Source: Tridacna crocea
Lineage: Eukaryota > Mollusca > Bivalvia > Cardiida > Cardiidae
Direction of reading: 5' to 3'
Assembly: GCA_943736015.1 (NCBI GenBank)
Contig: OX031062.1
Coordinates: 30,353,462-30,417,461, forward strand
Length of the DNA: 64,000 nucleotides
In this document: positions 8,886-62,879 of the stretch, one piece after another
Position numbering within the stretch: the first letter of the stretch is position 1
Layout of the letters: each line of letters starts with the position of its first letter
Made by a program: the position numbers and the translations under genes
The notes under the pieces: model-generated
What the model was told of the DNA's origin: nothing
The model's database searches: none
Seen by the model: only the letters and a program-made list of their open reading frames with translations

Positions 8886-9113
8886 TTAACCCTTTCCCAA
8901 ATGACAAATTTTAGACTCTTCCAAACTCAAAGACTTTACAGACGACAATTTCAAATTTGATAAAAATGGCAGAAAGTTCTCCAAATGGGTAGAAAACACT
9001 GTGGGAAAAGGAGAAATTGCTCATTATGAGCAGTTTCTCCTTTTCCCACAGTGTTTTCAAAATACTTGTACTGCAAACACGCTAAAACAAGGGCTTGCTT
9101 GGGAAAGGGTTAA
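8886..9113 (-). mobile_element. Family H MITE with changed but matching arms
   Basis: TTAA at both ends. Core at 8992-9058 (67 bp). Both arms differ from the family consensus at the same places (CACTG/CAGTG and GCTCAT/ATGAGC), so pairing is kept. Confidence 0.85.
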
Positions 9114-9654: not shown

Positions 9655-11920
9655 ATGGCATGCACAGATAGAATGATGTCCAAGAGACACATTTGCTCAA
9701 TACTAAAGTTCTCCTTTTTGTTCTTTGTGGTCCTGTTTATTTTTGTGAAATGGAGTTTTATGAGTGAGAATGGAAATATTATAGATTCAAAGGAAAATGC
9801 AACACCGATAGACACTGGTTTTTCGTATTACAAAGAGAGATTATCAACACAGTTTGACCTGAGGGTTATAGCTATTGTGTACAACAGAGCAGAATCCCTT
9901 CAAAGACTGTTAAATTCCTTGAATGAAGCATATTACGATAATGATCACGTTAAGTTAGAGGTATGGATTGACTGTTCAAAAGCTGGACAGATAGACCAGA
10001 AGGTTCTCAATGTATCTAATGGTTTTGAGTTCAAACATGGTGAATTCTCTGTATACACTCACCCAGCCCATGTAGGAATATTTGGACAGTGGCTTAACAC
10101 CTGGATCCCTTTGGAGAACAGTTCAGAAATAGCTATGATTTTAGAAGATGATTGTGTTGTATCGCCACACTTCTACAAGTATCTAAAATTGGTTCACAAG
10201 AGGTATGACAAATATCCATCCATCAACGGCTACGCTCTACAAGGGGTCTCAATTAAGCATTCAAATTCAAGGGGTATTCTCCAAGCACCTTACGAAAATC
10301 TTGTGTTTTTGTACCCAGTTCTAGGGACATGGGGCTTCTCTCCTAATAAACTAAATTGGATGAAATTTTTGAGCTGGTTCAGATCTGCTTACCGCGACAT
10401 CCATTTCAAGCCGTATGTTCCTGGAAATATCGTAACAAAATGGTATAAGTCCTTTGAAAGTCAGGGGAAACAGGGTGGAGTATGGTCCATATGGCATATA
10501 TACTTTGCCTGGAAGAACAACGAATACACATTGTACAGTAACTTCAAAGGTAAATTAATACGATAATATTGAATCGTGGTTGTAAATCCTTGCACAAAAC
10601 AGAAAAATTTTGGGGCCATCTTTATTGAAAGCATTAATTTGTAGACAACAAAATTAAGTTTGGCTTATAACCCTGAACCACACAATCCCGACTTTTAACG
10701 ACCCTGTAAGGTAGTCTTCTGAAAACATTGTGGGAAAAGGAGAAAATGCTGGTGACCAGCAGTCTCTCCTTTTCCCACAATGTTTTCTTCCCTTCCTTAT
10801 ACAAATTCAGATTTACTGGGCATATTTATCTTGTCGTCTGCAAATGCTCTCAGGTTGGACCAGTCTAAAATTTTGTTGTTTGGTAAAGGGTTAAATAAAA
10901 GGATTTTTCTGTCAAAGGGTAGAAAATACAGTGAGAAAAGGAGACAATGCTGGTGACTATCATTTTCTCCATTTCCAGCCATATTTTAACCCATTACCAC
11001 ACAATCCCTACTTTTGACGCCCCTGAGAAAGAAGCCTTTAGAAAACATTGTGAGAAAAGGAGAAAATGCTGGTAACCAGCATTTTCTCCTTTTCCCACAA
11101 TCTTTTCTACCCTTCACAAAACAAATTTCTAATTTTTCGGTCACTTTTATTTTGTCGTCTGCAAATGATTTCGATTTGGACAAACCTAAAATTTTGTCGT
11201 TTGGTAATGAGTTAATGATTCCCTTTTCTGTGGGTCACTAAAATCAGGTTTGTGTCATAATGGATATTGAAACCTGATCCAAGGGAAGCTTTTTCAAACA
11301 TTGTGGGGGGGGGGGGTGGGAAGGATACAAACATCACAGTTTCTCTGCTGTTTTCTGCCAGAATATCTCTACCAAGCCAGAAATTAGAACGCAAGATCAG
11401 ATGCATTTTTTTAACCTTTTTCACACAAATTTGAATGTCATGTAAATCGGAATTTTGAAGACCTGTACAAACACACAGTCTGGGAACATTGCTGGAAAAG
11501 GAGAAAATGATGCTAATCAGCATTTTACCCTTTTTTGCAATATTTCCTACCATTTCTCAGACGGAAATAATCTTTTGAGTCCAGAAAAAAATTGGTCATC
11601 AGCAATTACTATTGATTTGGGCAAGTGTGAAGTTTTGTTAAGTTAATTTGCAACTTAGGTTGTAAATGGCAGTCTGTGAATTTATAAAACATTTGAATTG
11701 ATGTTATGAGGCAAGGTTTATGCTTTGTATTTATAACTTGATCATCTGTCTGATTTTAGACCATGAAGGTTTGACAGCCAATTGGAAGGAAGCTGGCCTC
11801 CATTATTCCAAGGGAAGTAACTCTAAGCAGTCCAATCCATTGCTGACTACCTGGAAGTTGGAATATGACCACTTGCCAGATTTTCCGATCAAGCTAAACC
11901 TAAATGGCGAGGTAATATAG
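9655..11920 (+). CDS. GT13-like Golgi glycosyltransferase, two exons
   Basis: Exons 9655-10549 and 11760-11920 join in phase 1 (CAAAG|GTAAAT donor, TGATTTTAG acceptor) to give 351 residues. Residues 16-33 form one hydrophobic segment after a short basic tail, as in type II Golgi enzymes, so the catalytic part should face the lumen. The domain starts near residue 68 with RVIAIVYNRAESLQRLLNSL, the usual nucleotide-sugar-binding start of GT-A enzymes. ILEDDCVVSPHFYKYL (162-177) matches the metal-binding EDD region of GnT-I and POMGnT1. Possible N-glycosylation sites are N48, N119 and N155. The first ATG directly follows CTACAG, so an upstream non-coding exon is possible. The stop follows GEV, where GAG|GTAATA could also act as a donor, so a further exon cannot be excluded. 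The intron holds several family H copies. Acceptor and donor sugar are unknown. Confidence 0.8.
10667..10894 (+). mobile_element. Family H MITE in glycosyltransferase intron
   Basis: From ATAACCCTGAACCACACAAT to TTTGGTAAAGGGTTAA, with a core of GGTGACCAGCAG centre. Confidence 0.8.
10910..10989 (-). mobile_element. Family H core fragment
   Basis: CAAAGGGTAGAAAATACAG with a damaged palindrome, ending directly against the TTAA of the next copy. Confidence 0.5.
10986..11215 (+). mobile_element. Family H MITE, near-consensus copy
   Basis: TTAACCCATTACCACAC to TTTGGTAATGAGTTAA. TTAA at both ends, a near-perfect 67-bp core and the complete right arm (TCGTCTGCAAATGATTTCGA). Confidence 0.9.
11270..11647 (+). 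mobile_element. Worn family H pieces
   Basis: AACATTGTGG followed by a G12 run (11304-11316), then a second worn copy with GGAAAAGGAGAAAATGATGC and CATTTTACCCTTTTTTGCAA, ending near GTTTTGTTAAGTTAA. Confidence 0.5.
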
Positions 11921-14905: not shown

Positions 14906-15043
14906 CCTTTTGATAGCATAGAAAACATTGTGGTAAAAGGTGAAATTGCTCGTCACGAGCATTTTCACCTTTTGCCACAATGTTTTCCAAAGGCTCCTAC
15001 AAGCAATGTGTAGAAATGAGTATCTATGGAGTAAAGGGTTAAA
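14905..15043 (-). mobile_element. Family H core with compensating arm changes
   Basis: The core 14921-14987 is 67 bp. Relative to consensus both arms carry GGTGAAA/TTTCACC and GCTCGT/ACGAGC, so the changes match in both arms. Ends at AGTAAAGGGTTAA. Confidence 0.75.
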
Positions 15044-15894: not shown

Positions 15895-16123
15895 TTAACT
15901 GTCTATCAAATGACAAAATTTTTTGACTAGTCCAAATTGAAAGCGCTTGCAGACGACAAAATAAATGTGAATAAAAAATTGAATTTGATTTAGAAAGGAT
16001 AGAAAACATTGTGGGAAATGGAGAAAATACTGGTCACCAGCATTTTCTCGTTTTCCCAGAATGTTTTCAGAGGGTTTCTTTCTCAGGGTCGTTAAAAGTC
16101 AGGATTGTATGGTAAAGAGTTAA
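15895..16123 (-). mobile_element. Family H MITE, first of a back-to-back pair
   Basis: TTAACTGTCTATCAAATGAC to GTATGGTAAAGAGTTAA. Its last TTAA (16120-16123) is the first TTAA of the next, oppositely oriented copy. Confidence 0.85.
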
Positions 16124-16348
16124 CCCTTTACCACACAGTCCTGACTTTTAACGATCCTAAAAAAGAAGTCTTTTGAAAACATCATGGGAAAAGGAGAAAA
16201 TGCTGGTAACCAGCATTTTCTCCTTTTCCCGCAATGTTCTCTACCCTTCCAAAAACAAATTTCAAATTCTCATTTATTTCTATTTTGTCATACGCAAATG
16301 CTTGGATTTGGGACTAGTCTAAAATTTTGTCATTTGGTAAAGAGTTAA
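16120..16348 (+). mobile_element. Family H MITE, second of the pair
   Basis: TTAACCCTTTACCACACAGT to CATTTGGTAAAGAGTTAA with a near-perfect core. Confidence 0.9.
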
Positions 16349-18221: not shown

Positions 18222-20185
18222 TTAGCTCACCTTAGCATGAAGTGCTCAAAGTGAGCTATTGTGATCGATCAATGTCCATCGTCCGTCTCTCCGTCCGTCC
18301 ATCCATTCACAATTACAAAAAAAATCTTCTCCTCCTTAACTAACACAGATTTCATTCAAACTTCACAGAAATGATCCCTAGGTGATACACTGTCAAAATA
18401 CTTCAAAGATTTGAATTCCATTAAGAACTGTGGTTGCCATGGCAACCAAGTGAAAAAACTGAGAAAATATTCTCGTCCAAAACTGTAAGGGCTATGGCTT
18501 TCATATTTGGCATGTAGCATCATCTAATGGCCCTCTACCAAAATACTTCAAATCATGGCTCTAGTCTTGAAATTGGCCCTATGTTGTGGGTTCTCAGATT
18601 TTACATAGAGATTAAGAAGGAAATCTTAGAAAATCTTCTTGTCTCAAACCGTAAGGGCTAGAGCTCTCATATTTGGTATGTAGCATCATCTATTGGCCCT
18701 CTATTAAAATACTTTGCCCTAGTGCAGAAATTGGCCCTATGTTGTGTGGTCTCTGATTTCACAAAGAGATAAAGAAGGAAATCGTAGAAAATTTTCTTGT
18801 CCCAAACCATAAGGGCGAGAGCTTTCATATTTGGCATGTAGCATCATCTAGTGGCCCTCTACCAAAATACTTCAAATTATGGTCCTGCTGTGAAAATTAA
18901 ACCTATGTTGTTGGTCTTGGATTTCACATAGAGACAAGGAAGGAAATCTTTAAAAACCTTCTTGTCCAAATGGTAATGTCCAGAGCTTTCATATTTAGCA
19001 TGTAGCATCATATAGTGGCTCTCTACCAAAATACTTCAAATTATGTCCCTAATGTAAAAAATTGGCCCTATGTTGTGGGTCTCGGATTTCACATAGCGAT
19101 AAAGAAGGAAATCTTTAAAAATCTCTTTGTCCCAAACAGTAATGGCCAGAGCTTTCATATTCGGCATGTAGCATCATCTAGTGGCCCTCTACCAATATAC
19201 CTCAAATTATGGCCCTAGTGTTGAAAATGGCCTTATGTTGTGGGTTCTCGGATTTCACACAGTCATAAAGAAGGAAATCTTAGAAAATCTTTTTCTCCCA
19301 AACCATAAGGGCTAGAGCTTTCATATTTGGTATGTAGCATCATCAAGTTGCCCTCTACCAGAATACTTCAAATTATGGTTCTGGTGTGAAAGTTAACCCT
19401 ATGTTGTTAGTCTCATTTTTCACATAGAGAATAAGAGGGAAATCTTTATCCCATTACCAAACGACAATAGTTTAGACTGGTCCAAATTGAAAGCATTTGC
19501 AGACGACAAAATAAAAGTGACTGAAAATTTGAAATTTGTTTTGTGAAGGGTAGAAAACATTGTGGGAAAGGAGAAAATGCTGGTAACCAGCATTTTCTCC
19601 TTTTCCCACAATGTTTTCTAAAGACTTCTTTCTCAGGGGCGTCAAAAGTAGGGATTGTGTGGTAATGGGTTAAAAGTCTTCTTGTGAGCACTCTTGAGAC
19701 CACATTTCTTGCTAAGCTGAATTGAAAATTGGTTAGAATGTCTGTCTCAATAAAATCTCACATGAGTCTGCATTGAATGCTTGTTCGGAATATAACTTTG
19801 ACATCTCAAGTAAGAACGACTTCAAAATTGGTATGCATGGTTGTTGTGATATTACAGAGTACTGTGTTCAAGAACAATAACTCTACCTAGCATGGATTTT
19901 GAGTAATTCCACTTCGATCTTTATTTTGATAGTATTGTTAGCTTGTCCAGAGTGGAATTTTGAAGTCTCAAGTCAAATTGTTTGTTGCATTGCCTGCCCT
20001 TTGCAATTATTATATTTCCTGTACAACTGGCGGTGGGATTGCATATCTTGCGACAAAAAACGTTGCCGCTCTTGTTTCATCATCATTAGCCCTTGAACGT
20101 CAATATTTGGTAATTATAGTCTTTGTTGTAGACCTTTGCTGCTTAGTACTCAGGTGAGCGATACAGGAACATTATAGTCCTCTTG
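18222..20185 (+). mobile_element. Helentron-like element E1 (AGCTCACC family)
   Basis: Opens with a hairpin (AGCTCACCTTAGCATGAAGT..GTGAGC) followed by TATTGTGATCG and CCGTC-rich DNA. The core is about six tandem units of roughly 163 bp (marker TCATATTTGGCATGTAGCAT near 18501, 18667, 18825, 18989, 19155, 19320). It closes with ACTCAGGTGAGCGATACAGG and CTCTTG followed by T. The closing GGTGAGC is the inverse of the opening GCTCACC. No protein is encoded. A family H MITE sits inside it at 19446-19673. Assignment to Helitron/Helentron-type non-autonomous elements is inference from the architecture. Confidence 0.65.
19446..19673 (-). mobile_element. Family H MITE nested in E1
   Basis: Begins TTATCCCATTACCAAACGAC and ends GTGTGGTAATGGGTTAA. 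The host repeat reads GAAATCTTTAAAAATCT at the same place in neighbouring units, so the insertion split that TTAA. This is a good paralogous empty site. Confidence 0.9.
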
Positions 20186-21310: not shown

Positions 21311-21446
21311 TACATGTATTTTACATGGTAGAAAATATTGTGGGTAAAAGGAGAAAATGCTGGTTACCAGCATTTTCTTCTTTTACCCGCAATGTTTTCA
21401 AAAGGCCTCTTCATAAAACACAAGATTTTTTGGAACAGGGTAAATA
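21310..21446 (-). mobile_element. Family H fragment with paired insertion
   Basis: The core from 21331 has GGGTAAAAG in the left arm and CTTTTACCC in the right, so an extra base is matched in both arms. Confidence 0.65.
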
Positions 21447-21658: not shown

Positions 21659-21870
21659 TTAACTCTTCACTACCAAAATAAATTAGACTAGTCCAAATTT
21701 GAAGCATGTATAGATGACAGTTCAAACATGGCCCAAGTGATAGAACTTTTGGTAGGTTAGAAAACATTGTGAGAAAAGAAGAAAATGCTGGTTACGAGCA
21801 TTTTCTTCTTTTCCTATGTTTTAAAAAGCTTTGTACTTCAGGGTGGTTAAGTCTTCGGATTGTGTGTTAA
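21659..21870 (-). mobile_element. Family H MITE
   Basis: TTAACTCTTCACTACCAAAA to GATTGTGTGTTAA. GAAGAAAATGCTGGTTACGAGCATTTTCTTC carries a matched G-to-A change in both arms. It shares its last TTAA with the next copy. Confidence 0.8.
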
Positions 21871-31814: not shown

Positions 31815-34800
31815 ATGGCCAGATTTTTTATCTGTGCTTTGTTTTGCCTTGTGCAAGGTAATTTTCTGTTATGAAATAATCTCCTTTGATTTTACGTGAC
31901 GTACTAGTATACAGGACGCTTCGCTAGTGTTACATAGAGGCCTAGATTCCTGCTGAGCAGCGTAGAGAATTTGGAAACACAGGGTCGATAGTTCGAATTC
32001 CAAGATAGGTGAATTCCTCGCCAACTGATGAGTCGTTGCGACAGGATTTATCCTCGGTTTATTTCGAAAACCTCGTCACCACAGCTTGTAACAAGTTGTA
32101 GTCACGATTCCTCTCTAACCGTTGACCTTGGTTTCGACGATGGTTATGTGAAGAAGCATACTTGTGCATACTGTTAAAAGAGACTCCAGGAAAGCATGGA
32201 TAGGTGCACTGGCTGCCGCGATATGGCTGAATTAATGTCGAAAACGCCGCTAAATACTCTGCATGGATCCATAAAAAACATTAAGTATAACGAAGGACTG
32301 AATCTGGAAGTAGAATGGCCCATGGACTTGCAGAAAATTGAAAGATAGCAAAAAGTTTAGATCCATGTCAGCCTGTGATGCGCAGGCTGACATGAGTCTA
32401 TACTTTTGCAGATGCACTAAGTTCCTTCTTCACAGAGCAGATCTGCAAAGTATTTACCTGTGAAACAAAACCACAACCAAAGAGTATTGTCACGTGACGC
32501 CTTTTTTACCGGTAATTCGTTTCAGGAAGGTAGGGTAATTGGACAGGCTAGTAACTATCACCCGGAAAGTGTTGCAAATCAAATGATAATTCACAATAAT
32601 AATGTTTTAAGCGTTTGATTTCGAGATTGACATTTATATCACCAAGATGTTATCACTTAATTTGCGTATACTGCCAAATTGAAATAATTAATATTAATAT
32701 CAAAAGATGTTATCTACCAGAGCCGATCGCATGCTTAAAAGATTATATGTACTAATCTTTACCAGTTATTATCATTATTATTATTATTATTTTCGACAGC
32801 TATCCTGATCTACGCTGACACCGTCGAGGTATCACTCTACCCAAACGACAAAATCATTTTCATAGGGGAGAAAACGATCGTGAACACCACTATTAGATTT
32901 CCGAAACCAATCTACGAAGATGTGAACGTGACCCTGTACCCGACTATGGACGGACCGGATATGTATCTGCGCAGGATTCTGGGAGTCAGTATCGGAAAGA
33001 ATCTGCAAGTCTCCGGCAACGTTGTGCCTCTCATGGACTGGGGCAAAAAAGATGCTGTACCGGTAAAGTCTTCAGTGCCAGAAAAAAATCCTAATTCATC
33101 AAGTATTAGCTTGTTTTCTTGGTTTTGTCATTAAATTTATATTATTTATTTGATCTATGTATGGGAAATCCCAGTCACCAAGCACAGTCTGGTATCTGGC
33201 TTCATATGAGTTTGAAAACATTTGTTTGCTAATTTGAGTGCATGTACAATGAAACGAGCTATAGAAACACTTGTTAGATTGGTGTAATTTGTCCAGGTCA
33301 AAGTTATTTACCTTTTCTTTTTAATCAATATATTCTACAGTGGTTGTCTCTTGTTATTTCTAAAAGGGTGAATATCTTGCCTGCAAGTACTCACTTGGAA
33401 CAGTGAAACGGGCACCACGACCGCGTAGTAGAATTGATGACGTCATTACATTTCAATACGAGGCTATCATGGGGGCTGAGGGGAGCTACGAAGATGGAGA
33501 CGATCATATTCTCGGTGCCAGTGTGAAGTCTGCGGACGACTATGCGATCACGCTAAAACATGCGACAATGAGAAGTCGTACTTTACCGGTAAATAGGATG
33601 TTTGAACAGTCTAGTTGATCCACTCTCTCTGGCCAAAAGGAGAGGGCGGAGATGAATGCATCTCTATAATGCTCGATACTAAGCCAGTTATTATACTATT
33701 ACGAATGCATATATAGATCAATTTAGTGTTATAATCGACTAGATCTGGAAAAAGAATTTTCCTTAGACATGTAGAAAATTTAAAATTATCAAAAAGTTTC
33801 TACTTATGCGAACTTCGCAGACTGACATGTGCAGAGCTACAGACGAGAGGGAGTTACGGTATTCTAAATTCATTATTTCTCTTTGAAACCCTATGTTTTG
33901 GGTACTTGTTAGAATTGTCTTGATGAGACAGTTCTAATAAGTACCCATAACATAGGGTAAAGTGGTGATGAACTATTTTCAATTTCGAAATCAAAATCAC
34001 TCGGGACCTCTATCTGGAGCTCTGATGAGTCGATACTTTTTGCAGATGCAACAAGCCCCCTTTCAGAGATAAACCTCACTTAATTTGCATATACTGCCAA
34101 AACTATTATTCTTCCGAAGAAAATTTCCTTTTGACAAAGATTAGATCTATCTTATCACTGCCTTTTTTTGCAAATGTCTAGAACACCCTTTGTTATACAG
34201 AGTTTAAAAATCTCTATTCCATGAACAGTTTCAGCATTGCAAACCTTTTATGACCTTTTATTGACCTTCACGAAATTGTCTACGTTAGCATTGAAGATTG
34301 CGCTTACAATTCTTAATGTTCTCTACGCATTGTAGTGCCCAGCAACTTTTCTCTGACCTTTCGTGAAAAGAAATCGGGCAGTTTAAAGATACACCTTTAC
34401 TCGTTTCAACCCGTTTAAACTTTACTCGTATTTTACGAGACTATAATAATTCTTGTATCTTTATGCCCCTGACGGTTGCAAATTAAATTACTACCAATAG
34501 AAATGTAATTCATTCCCTTATGGCCGTCAAAGGAAGCACTAGGTTTTAAATCAAGGACGAATCCCTTGAGTTTCTATATCCCGTACACCATATTTATCAA
34601 TTATTCGTCCATATTTATACACAGCTGACCTATATCTAAACCTTTCTTACACACTGTACTATATCCCGTACACCATACTTATCATTTGTTCATGTGTATT
34701 TATACACAGCTGACAAAAGTCTGAACCTTCCTTACCCACTATAGGATGTCCCATACACCATACGTATCAATTGTTAATCTGTATTTATACACAGCTGACC

Positions 34801-37800
34801 AATGTCTTAACCTTTCTTACACACTATACTATGTCCCGTACACCATACTTATCTTTTATTATCTATATTTATATACAGCTGAGTAATATCTGAACCTTTC
34901 TTACACACTATAGGATGTCCCGTACACCATACTTATCAATGGTTTATATATAGTTATACACAGATCACCTATATCTGAACATTTCTTACACACTACACTA
35001 TATCCCATACACCATATTTATCAGTTGTTCATCTATATTTATACACAGCTGACCAATGTCTGAACCTTTCTTACACACTATACTATATCCCATACACCAT
35101 ACTTATCTATTGTTCATCTATATTTATACACAGCTGACCAATGTCTGAACCTTTCTTACACACTATAGGATGTCCCGTACATTTCACTTATCAATTATTT
35201 ATCTATATTTTATACACAGCTTACTAATATCTGAATCTTTTTTACAAACCATACAATGTCCCATACACCATCCGTATAATTGTTCAACTATATTCATGCA
35301 CAGCTAACCAATATCTGAACCTTTCTTACAAACTATACCATGTACCATACCCCAAACTTATCAATTGTTCATCTAAATTTAATTATTTACACCCAGCAGT
35401 CCAATATCTGAACCTTTCTAACTCATAATACTATGTTCCGTACATATTTATCAATTATTCGTCCATATTTATACAAAGATGACGTATATCCGAACCTTCT
35501 TACTCTCTATACTATGACCCATACACCATACTCATCAATCGTTCATCTGTATTTATACACGACTGACAAATGTCTGAACCTTCCTTACACACTATACTAC
35601 ATCCCATATACCATACTTATCAATTATTCATCCATATTTATACATAGCTGACAATATCTGAACCTTTCTTACACACTATACTATGACCCGTACACCATAC
35701 TTATCTATGGTTTATATATATTTATACACAGATGACCAATATCTGAACCTTTCTTACACACTGTACTACATCCCATATACCATACTTATCAATTATTCAT
35801 CCATATTTATACATAGCTGACAATATCTGAACCTTTCTTACATACTATACTATGACCCGTACACCATACTTATCAATGGTTTCTATATTTATACACAAAT
35901 TACCAATATTTGAACCTTTCTTACACACTATACTACATCCCATATACCATACTTATTAATTATTCATCCATATTTATACACAGCTGACAATATCAGAACC
36001 TTTCTTACGCACTATACTATGATCCGTACACCATACTTATCAATGGTTTATATATATGTATACACAGATGACCTATATCTGAACCTTTCTTACACACTAT
36101 ACTATGTCCCGTACACCATACTTATCAATTATTCATCCATATTTATACACAGCTGACTAATATCTGAACCTTTTTTATACACTATACTATGTCCCGTACA
36201 CCATACTTATCAATGGTTTGTATATATTTATACACAGCTGACCTATATCTGACCGTTTCTTACACAATATACTATGTCCCGTGCACCATACCTATCAATT
36301 ATTCATCCATATTTATATACAGCTGACCTACATCTGAACCTTTCTTACACACTGTACTATGTCCCGTGCACCATACTTATCAATTATTCATCCATATTTA
36401 TATACAGCTGACCAATATCTGAACCTTTCTTACACACTATACTATGACCCGTACACCATACTTATCGATTGTTCCTCTGTATTTATACACAGCTAACCAA
36501 TATTTGAACCTTTCTTACACACTATAGGATGTCATGTACACCATACTTATCAATTATTCATCCATATTTATACACAACTGACCAATATCTGAATCTTTCT
36601 TACACACTATACTATGACCCGTGCACCATACTTATCGATTGTTCCTGTGTATTTATACACAGCTAACCAATATTTGAACCTTTCTTACACACTATACGAT
36701 GTCATGTATACCATATTTATCAATTATTCATCCATATTTATACACAACTGACCAATATCTGAACCTTTCTTACACACTTTAGGATGTCCCGTACACCATA
36801 TTTATCAATTTTTCATCTGTATTTATACACAGCTGACCTATATCTGAACCTTTCTTACGCACAATACTATATCCCATACACAACACTTATCAATTGTTCC
36901 TCTGTATTTATACACAGCTGACAAATGTCTGAACCTTTCTTACACACTATAGGATGTCCCGTACACCATACCTGTCTATTGTTTATCCATATTTATACAC
37001 AGCTGACCAATATCTGAACCTTTCTTACACACTTTACTATGTCCCGTACACCGTACTTATTAATTGTTCGCCTATATTTATACACAGCTGACCAATATCT
37101 GAACCTTTCTTACACAATATACTATGTCCCGTAGACCATACTTATCAATTTTTCGTCTACATTTATACACAGCTGACCAATATTTGAACCTTTCTTAAAC
37201 AAGATACTATGTCTCTTAGCCCATACCTATCAATTGTTCATCTAGGTTGATAGACTGCTGACCAATATCTGAACCTTTCTTACACACTACACTATGTCCC
37301 ATACACCAAGGTTATAATTGGTCTTCATCTATATTTATACACAGCTGACCAATATCTGAACCTTTCTTACACACTACACTATGTCCCATACACCAAGGTT
37401 ATAATTGGTATTCATCTATATTTATACACAACTGACCAATATCTGAACCTTTCGTACACACTATACTATGTCCCGTAGCCCGTACGTACCAATTGTTTAT
37501 CTAGGTCGATACACTGCCGACCAATGTCTGAATCTTTCTTACACACTGTTTTTTTAAAAGCGTTTTCTTTTTTCTCTCCCTCACTCTTGCTGTTAAGATG
37601 TAGCTTTACCACACAGTGACGACTTGTAGCGACCATGATGAAGAAGCCTTTTGAAAACATTGCGGGAAAAGGAGAAAATGTTGTAAACAGCGGTTTTTCC
37701 TTTTCAAAAAAAAAAAAGATTTCCACCCTATCAAAGCAAAATTGTACCATTTGAGCCAGTTTGAAATTGTCGTCTGCAAATTATTTCAATTTGGATTGGT

Positions 37801-38413
37801 CTAAAACTTTGTGGTGTAGTAGCGGGTTAACCCATTACCACTCAATCCCTACTTTTGACGCCCCTGAGAAAGAAGCCTTTAGAAAACATTGTGGGAAAAG
37901 AAGAAAATGCTGGTAACCAGCATTTTCTCCTTTTCCCACAATGTTTTCTACCCTTCACAAAACAAATTTCAAATTTTCAGTCACATTTATTTTGTCGTCT
38001 GCAAATGCTTTCAATTTGGACCAGTCTAAAATATTGTCGTTTGGTATTGGGTTAAAACATAATTCACCAAAGGTATTGCCTTTTTTTATCCCTTACGCCA
38101 CTAAACGTGGATCGGTGTGCTTTTTCAATGTAGAACATCAGACGACACAAAACACGCTGTCTGATATTGGATCTACATTGGTCGATACTGCATTTTTTCC
38201 CGGTTGAAATCAACTTTGAAATCACATGTAATATTTGGGGTTTTCCTTTTGCGAAAAAAGAAAATGATTTCATTTATCTAGCAGTTTATAGGTTAAATCA
38301 TGTTTTGATATCTCTTTCAGCTTCTTTTCCGGGCCATGAACGAGGATGCCAAGCTGAAGCCATCTGTTATTGAGATGTTGATGAGTGAAGTTAATGGCAC
38401 GGCGGCTCAATGA
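31815..38413 (+). CDS. Secreted protein of unknown function, four exons
   Basis: Exons 31815-31857, 32800-33062, 33367-33588 and 38321-38413 join in frame (phases 1, 0, 0) with GT-AG borders to give 206 residues ending in TGA. The start MARFFICALFCLVQAILIYA is a clear signal peptide, likely cut near residue 20. The mature part begins DTVEVSLYPNDKIIFIGE and is rich in V, I, Y and T in short runs, which suggests a beta-sheet domain. It has three NxT sites (in VNTTIR, VNVTLY and VNGTAA) and a single cysteine (C108, in EYLACKY), so no disulphide core. Exon 3 has a basic stretch KRAPRPRSR, a possible processing site, and an acidic one YEDGDDH. I do not recognise the family. Intron 1 holds a SINE, intron 3 a 3-kb satellite and two family H copies. 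No AATAAA is seen just after the stop. Confidence 0.75.
31932..32290 (+). mobile_element. tRNA-derived SINE-like element
   Basis: A tRNA-like head with B box near 31985 (GGGTCGATAGTTCGAATTCC), then a body with GTTATGTGAAGAAGCATACT and GCACTGGCTGCCGCGATATG..GTCGAAAACGCCGCTAAATA, a tail type I recall from molluscan SINEs. Lies in intron 1 of the secreted-protein gene. Family not assigned. Confidence 0.55.
32330..32460 (+). repeat. Palindromic repeat (GTCAGCCTG..CAGGCTGAC)
   Basis: CATGTCAGCCTGTGATGCGC and AGGCTGACATG form the hairpin; the flank AGTCTATACTTTTGCAGATG recurs at 34028-34055 and a related hairpin at 44848-44880. Confidence 0.6.
33740..34075 (+). repeat. Same palindromic repeat, interrupted by a family U MITE
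   Basis: The left half (33745-33835) and right half (34024-34070, GATGAGTCGATACTTTTTGC) match 32310-32440. Between them, 33833-34023 has ends CAGAGCTACAGACGAGAGGG and CCTCTATCTGGAGCTCTG and a strong central hairpin: ACCCTATGTTTTGGGTACTT versus AAGTACCCATAACATAGGGT. Confidence 0.65.
34570..37549 (+). repeat. 84-bp satellite array, about 35 units
   Basis: A head-to-tail array of TATTTATACACAGCTGACCA, ATATCTGAACCTTTCTTACA, CACTATACTATGTCCCGTAC, ACCATACTTATCAATT and a variable TGTTCATCTA joint. The interval between successive GTCCCGTACA is 84 bases (34833 to 34917). Units differ by a few percent, with variants clustered locally (for example GACCCGTACACC at 35690-36480, CACCAAGGTTATAATTGG twice near 37310-37400). 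Lies wholly inside intron 3 of the secreted-protein gene. Confidence 0.95.
37600..37830 (+). mobile_element. Family H MITE
   Basis: GCTTTACCACACAGTGACGA to GTAGTAGCGGGTTAA. The second core arm is partly replaced by an A12 run. It shares TTAA 37827-37830 with the next copy. Confidence 0.75.
37827..38055 (+). mobile_element. Family H MITE, near-consensus
   Basis: TTAACCCATTACCACTCAAT to GTTTGGTATTGGGTTAA with a core differing between arms at a single position. Very close to the copies at 10986 and 19446, so this group is probably the youngest. Confidence 0.9.
38090..38250 (+). repeat. Repeat P, worn
   Basis: CATCAGACGACACAAAACAC, GCTGTCTGATATTGGATCTA, CATTGGTCGATACTGCA in the usual order. Confidence 0.5.
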
Positions 38414-41207: not shown

Positions 41208-42175
41208 TATGGCTGTTAACCCTTTGTAAAACGATAGCTATTTAACTCTTTGCAAAACAACAGCTGTTTAACTCTTAACAAAACGATAGCTTTTTAACTT
41301 TTAACAAAACGATAGCTGTTTAACCCTTTGCCAAGTAATGTTTGGCTCTTTTCCACAAGATAGCTGTTTAGCCCTTTGCTAAAAGATATCTGTAAAACTC
41401 TTTGACAAACGATAGCCTTTTACCTCTTTGCCAAACAATAGCTGTTTAGCTTTAGCCACAGTGAAGCTGTTTAGCTCTTTAACAAACAGAAGCTGAATAA
41501 CTTTTTGTCAAACGGAAGCTGGATAAATCTTTAAAGAAAAAAAGTTGTTTAGCTCTTTGCCAAACAATAGCTGTTAGGCCATTTGCCAAACGAAACAAAA
41601 TAGCTGTCTAGCTCCTTGCCAAACGATAGCTGTTTAACTCGTTGTCAAACGATAGCTGTTTAACTCGTTGTCAAACGATAGCTGTTGAACTCGGTGTCAA
41701 ACGATAGCTGTTGAACTCTTTGCCAAACGAAATCTGTTTAATTCTTTGCCAAACATGACCTCTTTAGCACTTTGCCGAAAGATAGCTGTTTAGGTCTTTG
41801 CCAGACGATAGTTTTTTAACTCTTAGCCAAACGATAGCTACTCGTATTTAGCTCTCTACCAAACGATAGCTGTTTAACTCTTTGCCAAACATAAGCTATT
41901 TAACTCTTTGCCAAACATAAGCTGTTAAACTCTTTTACAAAATGATAGTTGTTTAACCCTTTGCTGAACGATAGCTGTTTTAGCTCTTTGTCAAAAATCT
42001 GTCTTACTCTTTGACAAACGGAAGCTGTTTAGCCCTTTGCCGAAACACTGCTGCTTAACTATTTGCCAAACGATTGCTATTTAACCCTTAGCCAAATGAT
42101 AGCTGTTTAACTCTTTACAAAAGGATAGCTGTTTACCCTCAGCCAAAAGATAGGTGTTTAGCTCTATCCTAAAAG
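41208..42175 (+). repeat. 28-bp minisatellite, about 34 units, like the family H terminus
   Basis: Unit close to GATAGCTGTTTAACTCTTTG plus CCAAAC, repeated head to tail with frequent single changes. TTAACTCTTTGCCAAACGAT is one base change per few positions away from the family H end TTAACTCTTTACCAAACGAC, a copy of which stands 370 bases upstream (40832). Confidence 0.85.
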
Positions 42176-53644: not shown

Positions 53645-54082
53645 AAAAAAGCAGAAAACACTGATGGAAAAGGAGGAAATGCTGGTATCTAAGGTTTTTC
53701 TCCTTTTCATCGTTCAATATTTTCAAATCTCAAAACCTGAAGCTAAATTCAAACTGTCCTCTTCAACTGCTTTAACCCTATACCAAGCCATCCGGACTTT
53801 GAACAATTCTGATAAAGAAGGCTTCTGAAAACGTTGTGGGAAAAGAAGAAAATGCTGGTAACCAGCATGTTCTCTTTTTCCCACAGTGTTTCCTACCCTG
53901 CTGAAAACAAATTTCAATTTTTTGAGTTTTATTTATTTTGTAACCAGCATTTTCTCCTTTTCCCACAATGTTTTCTACCCTTTCCAAATGAAATTTCAGT
54001 TTTTGAGTCATGCTTATTATGTCGTCTGCAAATGCTTTAAAGTTGGACTAGTTCAGAATTTTGTCATCTGGTAAAGAGTTAA
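53645..54082 (+). mobile_element. Family H fragment and a copy with duplicated core
   Basis: 53645-53771 is a worn core and arm. 53772-54082 starts TTAACCCTATACCAAGCCAT and ends ATCTGGTAAAGAGTTAA; TAACCAGCATTTTCTCCTTT and the following arm to CAAATT occur twice, so the second half of the core is duplicated in tandem. Confidence 0.75.
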
Positions 54083-55108: not shown

Positions 55109-55335
55109 TAAACTTTACCAAACTACATAATTTTAGACTTGTCCAAAATGGAAGCTTTTGCAGACAAGAAAATAAATGTAACTCAAAAATTGAAATTTGT
55201 TTTCAGCAGGGTAGCAAACATTGTGGGAAAAGGAGAAAATACTGGTAATCAGCATTTTCTCCTTTTCTTATAATATTTTAAAACTGCTTCTTTCACAGGG
55301 TTGTTAAAAGTTGGGATTTTGTGGTAAAGGTTTAA
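55109..55335 (-). mobile_element. Family H MITE
   Basis: TTAAACTTTACCAAACTACA to TTGTGGTAAAGGTTTAA. It shares TTAA with the next copy. Confidence 0.75.
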
Positions 55336-55560
55336 CCCTTTACCACACAATGACGACTTTTAACACCTCCTAGGAAGGGGCCTTTTGAAAACATTGTGGG
55401 AAAAGGAGAAAATGCTGGTAACCAGCATTTGCTCCTTTTCCCACAAAGTTTTCTTCCCTATCAAAGCAAAATTACACAATTTGAGCCACTTTGAAATTGT
55501 CCTCCGCAAATGCATCCAATTTGGACAGGTCTAGAATTTTGCTGTGTGGTAATGGGTTAA
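55332..55560 (+). mobile_element. Family H MITE
   Basis: TTAACCCTTTACCACACAAT to TGTGTGGTAATGGGTTAA, with a near-perfect core and the TTTGAGCCACTTTGAAATTG subfamily arm. Confidence 0.9.
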
Positions 55561-56329: not shown

Positions 56330-56520
56330 TATTGGAGGTTATTGAAAACATTGTGGGGAAAAGAAGAAAATGCTGGTGACCAGAAGAAAAGTCTTTCAGA
56401 TAAAGAGATGGCTTTTGAAAACATTGTTGGAAAAGAAGAAAACGCTTGTGACCAGAAAAGGAGAATTCTTCTTCTGAGAAATCGACAGCTTTTGAAAACA
56501 TTGTGGGAAAAGATGAAAAT
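56330..56520 (+). repeat. Tripled family H core arm
   Basis: The single arm GAAAACATTGTGGGAAAAGA plus GAAAATGCT occurs three times in a row (56344, 56417, 56494), each followed by GACCAGAA(A)AG-type text instead of the matching second arm. The third runs straight into a SINE head. Confidence 0.75.
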
Positions 56521-56705
56521 GCTCTGTAGCTCAGCTGGTAACAACATTTGAGCAAGCATGTTGCTGGTACAAAATTCCAGCTTGCCAATTTCTCTCAGAG
56601 AATTTATGATAGTCATTGCAACAGGATACATTCCTATCTTGCTTCTGAATAACCCTAGATGGTTATGTGGGAAAGCAGCCAATGACTTAGGAACACCATA
56701 GTGAG
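56521..56705 (+). mobile_element. SINE, copy 2
   Basis: Head CTCTGTAGCTCAGCTGGTAA with a tRNA-like A box, then TGATAGTCATTGCAACAGGA .. TGGTTATGTGGGAAAGCAGC shared with the - strand copy at 54690-54890. Confidence 0.65.
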
Positions 56706-61870: not shown

Positions 61871-61879
61871 AGGCCGAGG

Positions 61880-61992
61880 CTATCCGCAGGATGGTTGTGC
61901 GAATAAGAATGGTTATCGGCATGACGGTCGTGCCGATAACCATTCTTATTCGCACGACAGTCGTGCTGTTAGCACCACTATCTGCACGACAG
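61880..61992. repeat. Perfect 25-bp inverted repeat in a GC-rich palindrome cluster
   Basis: GTGCGAATAAGAATGGTTAT plus CGGCA is mirrored exactly by TGCCGATAACCATTCTTATT plus CGCAC across TGACGGTCG. More GCACGACAGTCGTGC-type palindromes follow to 61992. Related text is at 62745-62865. Confidence 0.85.
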
Positions 61993-62051
61993 AAAATGGA
62001 CCACTGACAGTACTTTAACTATTGCGTTTGGGGAAAAAAATACTCACTTTT

Positions 62052-62283
62052 TTAACCCTTTACCAAACAATCCCTGGTTTTAACGACCCTGAGACAGAAG
62101 CCTTTTGAAAACATTGTGGGAAAAGGAGACAGTGCTGGTAAACAGCTTTGTCTCATTTTCCCACAATGTTTTCTGCCCCGCTGGAAATAAATTTCAATTT
62201 TTAAGTTGCATGGTTTATTTTGCTGCCTGCAAGTTCTTTCAACTTGGAACAGACCTAAATTTTGTTGTTTGGGAAAGGGTTAA
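62052..62283 (+). mobile_element. Family H MITE with matched arm change
   Basis: TTAACCCTTTACCAAACAAT to GTTTGGGAAAGGGTTAA. The core has GAGACA in the left arm and TGTCTC in the right where the family has GAGAAA/TTTCTC. Confidence 0.85.
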
Positions 62284-62744
62284 AGGGGGGATAGGGTTTA
62301 GAGTACCGGAAATTGTGTCTGCCATATTACAAAGCCATCTTTTTTTCATTTTCGGCGGCCCTTCGATTCAGTTACTTTTTTTCTCAAAATTCTAAAGATA
62401 TCACAGATTGTGCGGATAGTTGTAACCATTGAGGGTAAGTGATCCGGCTAATTTTTCCCCCTACTTTGGGGCCGGGATCTTTTTTTTTTCCAAGTTCCTC
62501 CTCCTCCTCTCCAATGAAACTCAAATGTTTCTTCCACAACACTCCTGTACGTATCACTCCATTGGCTGATAGTCCTACCTAAGATCCCTTCACACCAAAC
62601 ATTACAATACTTGGGAATGGTTTAAAACATAAGACCCCTTAGGCCTAAGATAGGGCTAAAATGAATAGTAACAAGATTTCACTATATAACTCTTGGCAAT
62701 AATTTCGACCCTAGGGCTATGATTTATATGCTCTTGATGAAGGC
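62283..62744. other. No gene recognised
   Basis: Contains a G7 run and a T9 run. No repeat recognised. Confidence 0.3.
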
Positions 62745-62870
62745 CAACGACCGTCGCGCGAATACCGAACCTTATCGGCACGACCGTCGTGCCGATAGAC
62801 ATTCCTTATCGGCACGACCGTCGTGTGAATACCGGACCTTACCGTTGTGCCGATAGACACTTCCAAAAAA
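62745..62870. repeat. GCACGACCGTCGTGC palindrome cluster
   Basis: TTATCGGCACGACCGTCGTG occurs twice, with CGACCGTCGCGCGAATACCG and GAATACCGGACCTTACCG between. Same motif family as 61880-61992. It ends beside the start of the 0.85-kb duplicated block. Confidence 0.75.
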
Positions 62871-62879
62871 AAAGAAAAG

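Follow-up and report, generated by a model that had tools for sequence, protein, structure and literature searches.

A hairpin-centred MITE in Tridacna crocea

A full-length MITE lies on the plus strand at positions 8886–9113 of the window (the whole stretch of 64,000 nucleotides that was analysed), bounded by TTAA at 8886–8889 and 9110–9113 and with the ends TTAACCCTTTCCCAA and TTGGGAAAGGGTTAA. It belongs to a piggyBac-like family of about 227 bp, described here by a 227-position model from an iterated profile, and the hairpin of family H, a near-perfect palindrome, forms its centre. The window holds 85 non-overlapping matches to this model, which make up 22.5% of its length; elsewhere in the genome the density is about one non-target match per kb across 65 fetched loci, a non-random sample that was collected by similarity to three window copies and includes whatever neighbours the matches.

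Of the 108 copies that span the full length of the model, 87 have TTAA at both ends, as a TTAA target duplication would leave it. In addition, for the nested copies L029:2098 and L031:2097, the joined flanks align without a gap, over 144 of 144 nt, to uninterrupted loci, at up to 97% identity. The target and the ends are consistent with a MITE of piggyBac-like type. CC[C/T]T, the terminal motif named in the available part of PMC2872659, is present at both ends in the clusters around the window copies at 8992, 62053 and 14921 (S8992, S62053 and S14921); the majority ends of the main cluster, CTCATTACC and CCCATTACC, are without it. The element is short, has a high copy number and is classed as non-coding by its length alone. 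Two other assignments were considered and rejected. Kolobok MITEs of the T2-MITE type share the TTAA duplication, but their ends start with two purines according to the available text of PMC6004289, whereas the ends of this family start with CY after TTAA. Membership in a known family of structured RNA genes was rejected because no Rfam match reached the gathering score in the window. Exact patterns of the hairpin core were found neither in viral contigs nor in prokaryote genome contigs. A literature search on TTAA MITEs in bivalves and on hairpin compensation in MITEs, which covered few subscription journals, returned no title or abstract opening on family H.

Several features of the window stand beside the MITE copies. 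Some copies abut head-to-head or in line at a common TTAA (15896–16347, 55113–55559, 37604–38054 and 10668–11214), as if newcomers had inserted into the terminal TTAA of older copies. A tandem repeat at 41212–42165 has about 36 copies of a 26-bp unit, GCTGTTTAACTCTTTGCCAAACGATA, that is similar to the MITE's left end, as though an end had turned into a minisatellite, and the units of two short arrays (56342–56523 and 53858–54008; 77 and 82 bp) contain half hairpins of the family. At 34574–37547 an 85-bp unit is repeated in tandem about 35 times, and a 166-bp array at 18464–19446 stops where a MITE copy starts (19447). None of the nine window open reading frames scanned reached the Pfam cut-off; the one at 9655–10563 has its top named relatives in Mercenaria, Dreissena and Ruditapes.

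Matched changes in the two arms

The hairpin of the first copy, at 8992–9058, has 33-nt arms around a 1-nt centre. The sequence-only reading had held that its arms depart from the consensus at matched positions (CACTG/CAGTG and GCTCAT/ATGAGC) and that four other copies do so too, and all five read as it described. The hairpin at 14921–14987, of the 14921 subfamily, has GGTGAAA/TTTCACC and GCTCGT/ACGAGC; the one at 21331–21399 has one inserted base at mirrored places of both arms (GGGTAAAAG/CTTTTACCC); the copy at 21660–21869 (plus strand) has a matched G20A in its hairpin at 21780–21812 (GAAGAAAA/TTTTCTTC); and the copy at 62053–62282 (minus strand) has a matched A24C in its hairpin at 62107–62173 (GAGACA/TGTCTC).

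Paired change in the window hairpins also exceeds chance. For the 56 of the 85 window matches in which more than 85% of the hairpin was aligned, we counted 35 matched pair cells against a mean of 15.6 in 500 column shuffles that ignore kinship and copy age (s.d. 3.6, maximum 29). Both arms were changed at 63 true partners, compared with 23–39 when the partners were slid by one to six positions; sliding abolishes the effect. Even so, matching is the exception in these 56 hairpins, because 318 cells were changed on one side only and 28 on both sides without a match.

Inheritance from a few parent elements

The assembly that was searched comprises 1.05 Gb in 31 contigs. From 344 matches we kept 247, leaving out hairpins aligned over less than 90% of their length; the better strand was retained where matches overlapped, and three loci inside the window (L001, L009 and L039) were left out of the counts. 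In this genome set, six matched types were each present in both arms of 23–51 of the 247 copies. For example, A21T was carried in both arms by 38 copies, in the left arm alone by three and in the right arm alone by one.

At least 40 places in the genome are 92–100% identical to the 8992 copy. Among those relatives that were read, both arms commonly have T8C, A26T and G31C. The 8992 copy itself retains T8C and G31C as matched subfamily states, the A26T of its subfamily is now broken in the right arm, and its G32A is parallel decay at a CpG. Relatives of the 14921 copy have G14C, A21T, A26T and G31C in both arms, and their majority sequence has no fixed one-sided change; the 14921 copy keeps A21T and G31C matched and has G14C and A26T each altered on one side. 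Since the two groups share A26T and G31C, there are five distinct pairs and not seven. The copies of each group sit at mostly unrelated insertion sites: homologous flanks were found on the two sides in one and none of 28 pairs of the 8992 group, and in five and four of 406 pairs of the 14921 group, and among 32 further loci of the 8992 group there was flank homology in seven of 496 pairs. One copy, L063:2858, has A26T and G31C as its only matched changes and is a possible intermediate. Thus, where they can be traced, the matched changes were mostly inherited from a few parent elements.

The A24C of the 62107 hairpin is also common to its relatives, and 28 of these 30 copies lie inside one repeat of about 1 kb, which occupies 61872–62872 in the window. 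Homology to this repeat was found in 24–29 of 29 fetched loci for most 100-bp steps of 61901–62800, and homologous flanks were found on the left in 325 and on the right in 346 of 435 pairs of copies. We therefore rejected S62053 as a MITE subfamily with fixed one-sided changes: the 28 copies with homologous flanks are mostly one insertion carried by the larger repeat. Two loci without homologous flanks, L019 and L021, do have the one-sided states of S62053, and they count against the explanation that we prefer below. The majority hairpin of S62053 pairs more fully on one strand, which had prompted a strand-specific RNA reading; this was dropped because a transition in one arm always leaves a G-U pair on one of the strands, and the one-sided changes that are shared point both ways. 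The repeat has GC-rich inverted motifs close to both of its ends.

The T insertion of the 21331 copy occurs at 189 exact one-arm places in the genome. Among 50 copies examined it was in both arms in four (two of them chosen for it), in one arm in 38 and unclear in eight. The four copies with both arms changed are unrelated by flank, at distances of 0.36–0.43, and the call for one of them, L109, rests on one mismatch versus two. Ten automatic calls of matched indels were made; clean by eye were W21312, L067:853 and the pair W49035/W57022, and the remainder, which look like homopolymer or alignment noise, were discarded.

Arm changes after insertion

Over all pairs of the 247 hairpins, a series that reuses copies so that the pairs overlap, matched changes made up none of 1,058 changed stem pairs at flank distances below 0.04, six of 1,405 at 0.04–0.08, and 26% at 0.4–0.6. 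In the series of non-overlapping nearest pairs, the 49 pairs closer than 0.12 had no matched and 109 single differences; 21 pairs at 0.12–0.2 had three matched, eight other double and 91 single differences; and 48 pairs beyond 0.2 had 37 matched, 81 other double and 406 single differences.

Private changes within the subfamilies agree with this picture. In the 40 copies of the 8992 subfamily there were three matched private changes against 3.6 expected, all of them G32A at one CpG. The G31C change created a CpG in each arm, and G32A was found in the left arm in nine copies, in the right arm in 15 and in both in three (3.4 doubles expected), so that the doubles can be explained as parallel decay. 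Because they match the single-arm rates, GCTCAT/ATGAGC in the 8992 example is in part a product of ordinary CpG decay. No matched private change was found in the 38 copies of the 14921 subfamily. Outside the CpG, the 78 copies of the two subfamilies therefore have no matched private change; only 0.15 and 0.11 were expected, so that these zeros oppose frequent conversion, not conversion at a low rate.

In wider sets a residue of matching is left. The 114 clustered copies had six matched private changes where 1.3 were expected: T8C in the main cluster accounts for three and the CpG pair for the other three. The 133 old, unclustered copies had 82 matched cells against 43.5 expected, and 61 against 40.8 (from column and copy rates) once the six main types were removed. 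Matched T8C, G10A, G20A and G12T recur in copies without flank kinship; T8C occurs on several flank backgrounds, namely S8992, three main-cluster copies and seven unclustered copies, and its recurrence may reflect an old polymorphism, hairpin exchange between copies or repeat change. Taken together, the residual excess, the recurrent types and the both-arm T insertion make a low rate of arm-to-arm copying possible.

Within the subfamilies, the arms of inserted copies mutate near-independently. Independence of the arms once subfamilies are taken into account had been named as the outcome that would refute the sequence-only reading; it describes inserted copies closely and fails for the source elements, whose fixed differences are mostly paired.

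Divergence between source lineages

Relative to the family consensus, S8992 has fixed differences at six sites and S14921 at eight, all in matched pairs; in S62053 one change is matched and two are one-sided. The sequence of the hairpin is conserved as well. Between the main cluster and S8992, six of 66 hairpin sites differ versus 42 of 123 interior sites (Fisher p = 1e-4), and between the main cluster and S62053 the figures are four of 66 and 25 of 124 (Fisher p = 0.01), so that hairpin divergence between subfamilies is three to four times below that of the flanks. The alignment of S14921 to the model starts only near the hairpin, yet 58 of its 66 hairpin sites are kept.

Within clusters, too, the hairpin has changed less than its flanks in five cases out of six: 0.018 versus 0.069 and 0.046 in S8992, 0.020 versus 0.032 and 0.037 in S14921, and 0.030 versus 0.075 and 0.067 in the main cluster. 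Change in S62053 is about equal (0.029 versus 0.025 and 0.024). Slower hairpin change inside clusters weakens the case for a restraint that acts in sources alone, although mixed sources within loose clusters may explain it. A further point against our preferred explanation is G13A, a one-sided change that marks 12 of the 38 copies of the 14921 subfamily, which means that a mismatched source did multiply. The G13A copies are L043, L048, L050, L051, L054, L056, L058, L061, L064, L066, L104 and L107. As for the kind of change, transversions account for five of the six main types, and four of these simply flip the pair (G to C or A to T). Private changes, by contrast, comprise 119 transitions and 67 transversions, and given these numbers the probability of the transversion excess in the main types is 0.025.

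Origin of the paired differences

The matched changes had been put down to arm-to-arm conversion through a cruciform, to pairing-dependent transposition or to selection on an RNA hairpin. Conversion in resident copies, by replication template switching at the hairpin in any copy of any age, is probably not the main cause. The mechanism itself is described for RNA genes in the available part of PMC8794818, and the 61 matched cells of unclustered copies and the both-arm T insertion in four of 50 copies unrelated by flank would suit it. However, the 49 independent close pairs, with no matched and 109 single differences, speak against it, as does the lack of non-CpG matches among private changes in 78 copies; old copies, too, are dominated by one-sided changes, and slower hairpin divergence between subfamilies is not predicted. 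We regard it as distinctly unlikely in this general form, and the data argue against more than a minor contribution. Parallel point mutation at hot sites, CpG among them, is even more improbable as the source of the matched changes: it accounts for G32A at 8992, and some G-to-A matches in old copies may qualify, but it cannot yield types that most carriers have in both arms (A21T in both arms of 38 carriers, in one arm of four), which excludes it for the six main types.

Pairing-dependent propagation or selection stays plausible. We think it somewhat probable that subfamilies are founded by paired source palindromes, that the arms mutate independently after insertion, and that selection for pairing keeps the sources paired. 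New copies would arise from a few source elements, whose palindrome would stay paired while its sequence slowly alters, so that every subfamily would start out with matched arm changes of its own; once a copy has inserted, its arms would mutate independently. Selection during spread would presumably keep the sources paired, and it might act via a DNA hairpin, a twofold transposase site or a transcribed RNA. Selection on source pairing is favoured because both pairing and sequence are kept between subfamilies. The main rival is that template switching is confined to sources: the palindrome would be repaired, or re-created from one arm, in sources or in the transposition cycle only, and selection would be unneeded. 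Such a process can make several matched changes at once, and it fits both their absence from inserted copies and the paired state of fixed subfamily differences; moreover, stepwise compensation through G-T would not favour transversions, which five of the six main types are. Nevertheless, on its own it leaves the lower divergence of the hairpin than of the flanks unexplained, L063:2858 suggests at least two steps, and mismatched G13A copies multiplied without repair, so that we consider it unlikely, if less so than conversion in resident copies. A fuller version of the selective explanation, which we offer tentatively and hold to be somewhat less than probable, is that the palindrome is a selected cis-element without which the MITE would not spread efficiently, that sources evolve by compensatory replacement of pairs, of which very many copies keep a record, and that a copy riding in a larger repeat accumulates one-sided changes and so serves as a natural control.

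Relation to known systems

The subfamilies of a repeat offer a way to separate hairpin selection from arm conversion, by comparison of source-fixed with copy-private changes, and with so many copies the question can be tested. If selection acts on pairing, a cut-and-paste MITE would depend on an internal hairpin, which is not required in the papers on TTAA transposons that we compared.

Among the closest counterparts is CMITE of Acropora corals. According to the available text of PMC2872659, it is small, has piggyBac/TTAA duplications and CC[C/T]T ends, is better conserved between families in its interior than at its ends, and forms tandem arrays; on the other hand, it is only about 100 bp long, and that text mentions no hairpin, palindrome or arm covariation. 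A one-event route to matched arm changes is provided by hairpin template-switch mutations, but the portion of PMC8794818 available concerns RNA genes, and a comparable rate is absent in inserted copies here. Compensatory change in the stem of a mobile element has precedents in REPINs and DINE-1. REPINs of bacteria, as described in the accessible part of PMC3116915, are short mobile palindromes with compensatory changes in the stem, and the paired unit is regarded as the replicating unit; unlike family H, they are bacterial, are tied to RAYT transposases and have no TTAA or comparable terminal repeats in that account. In DINE-1 of Drosophila, a non-autonomous element, the stem has between-species differences that were read as compensatory, although this stem is only 7–11 nt long and lies near one end of a Helitron-like element without TTAA, as far as the available text of PMC2374699 describes it.
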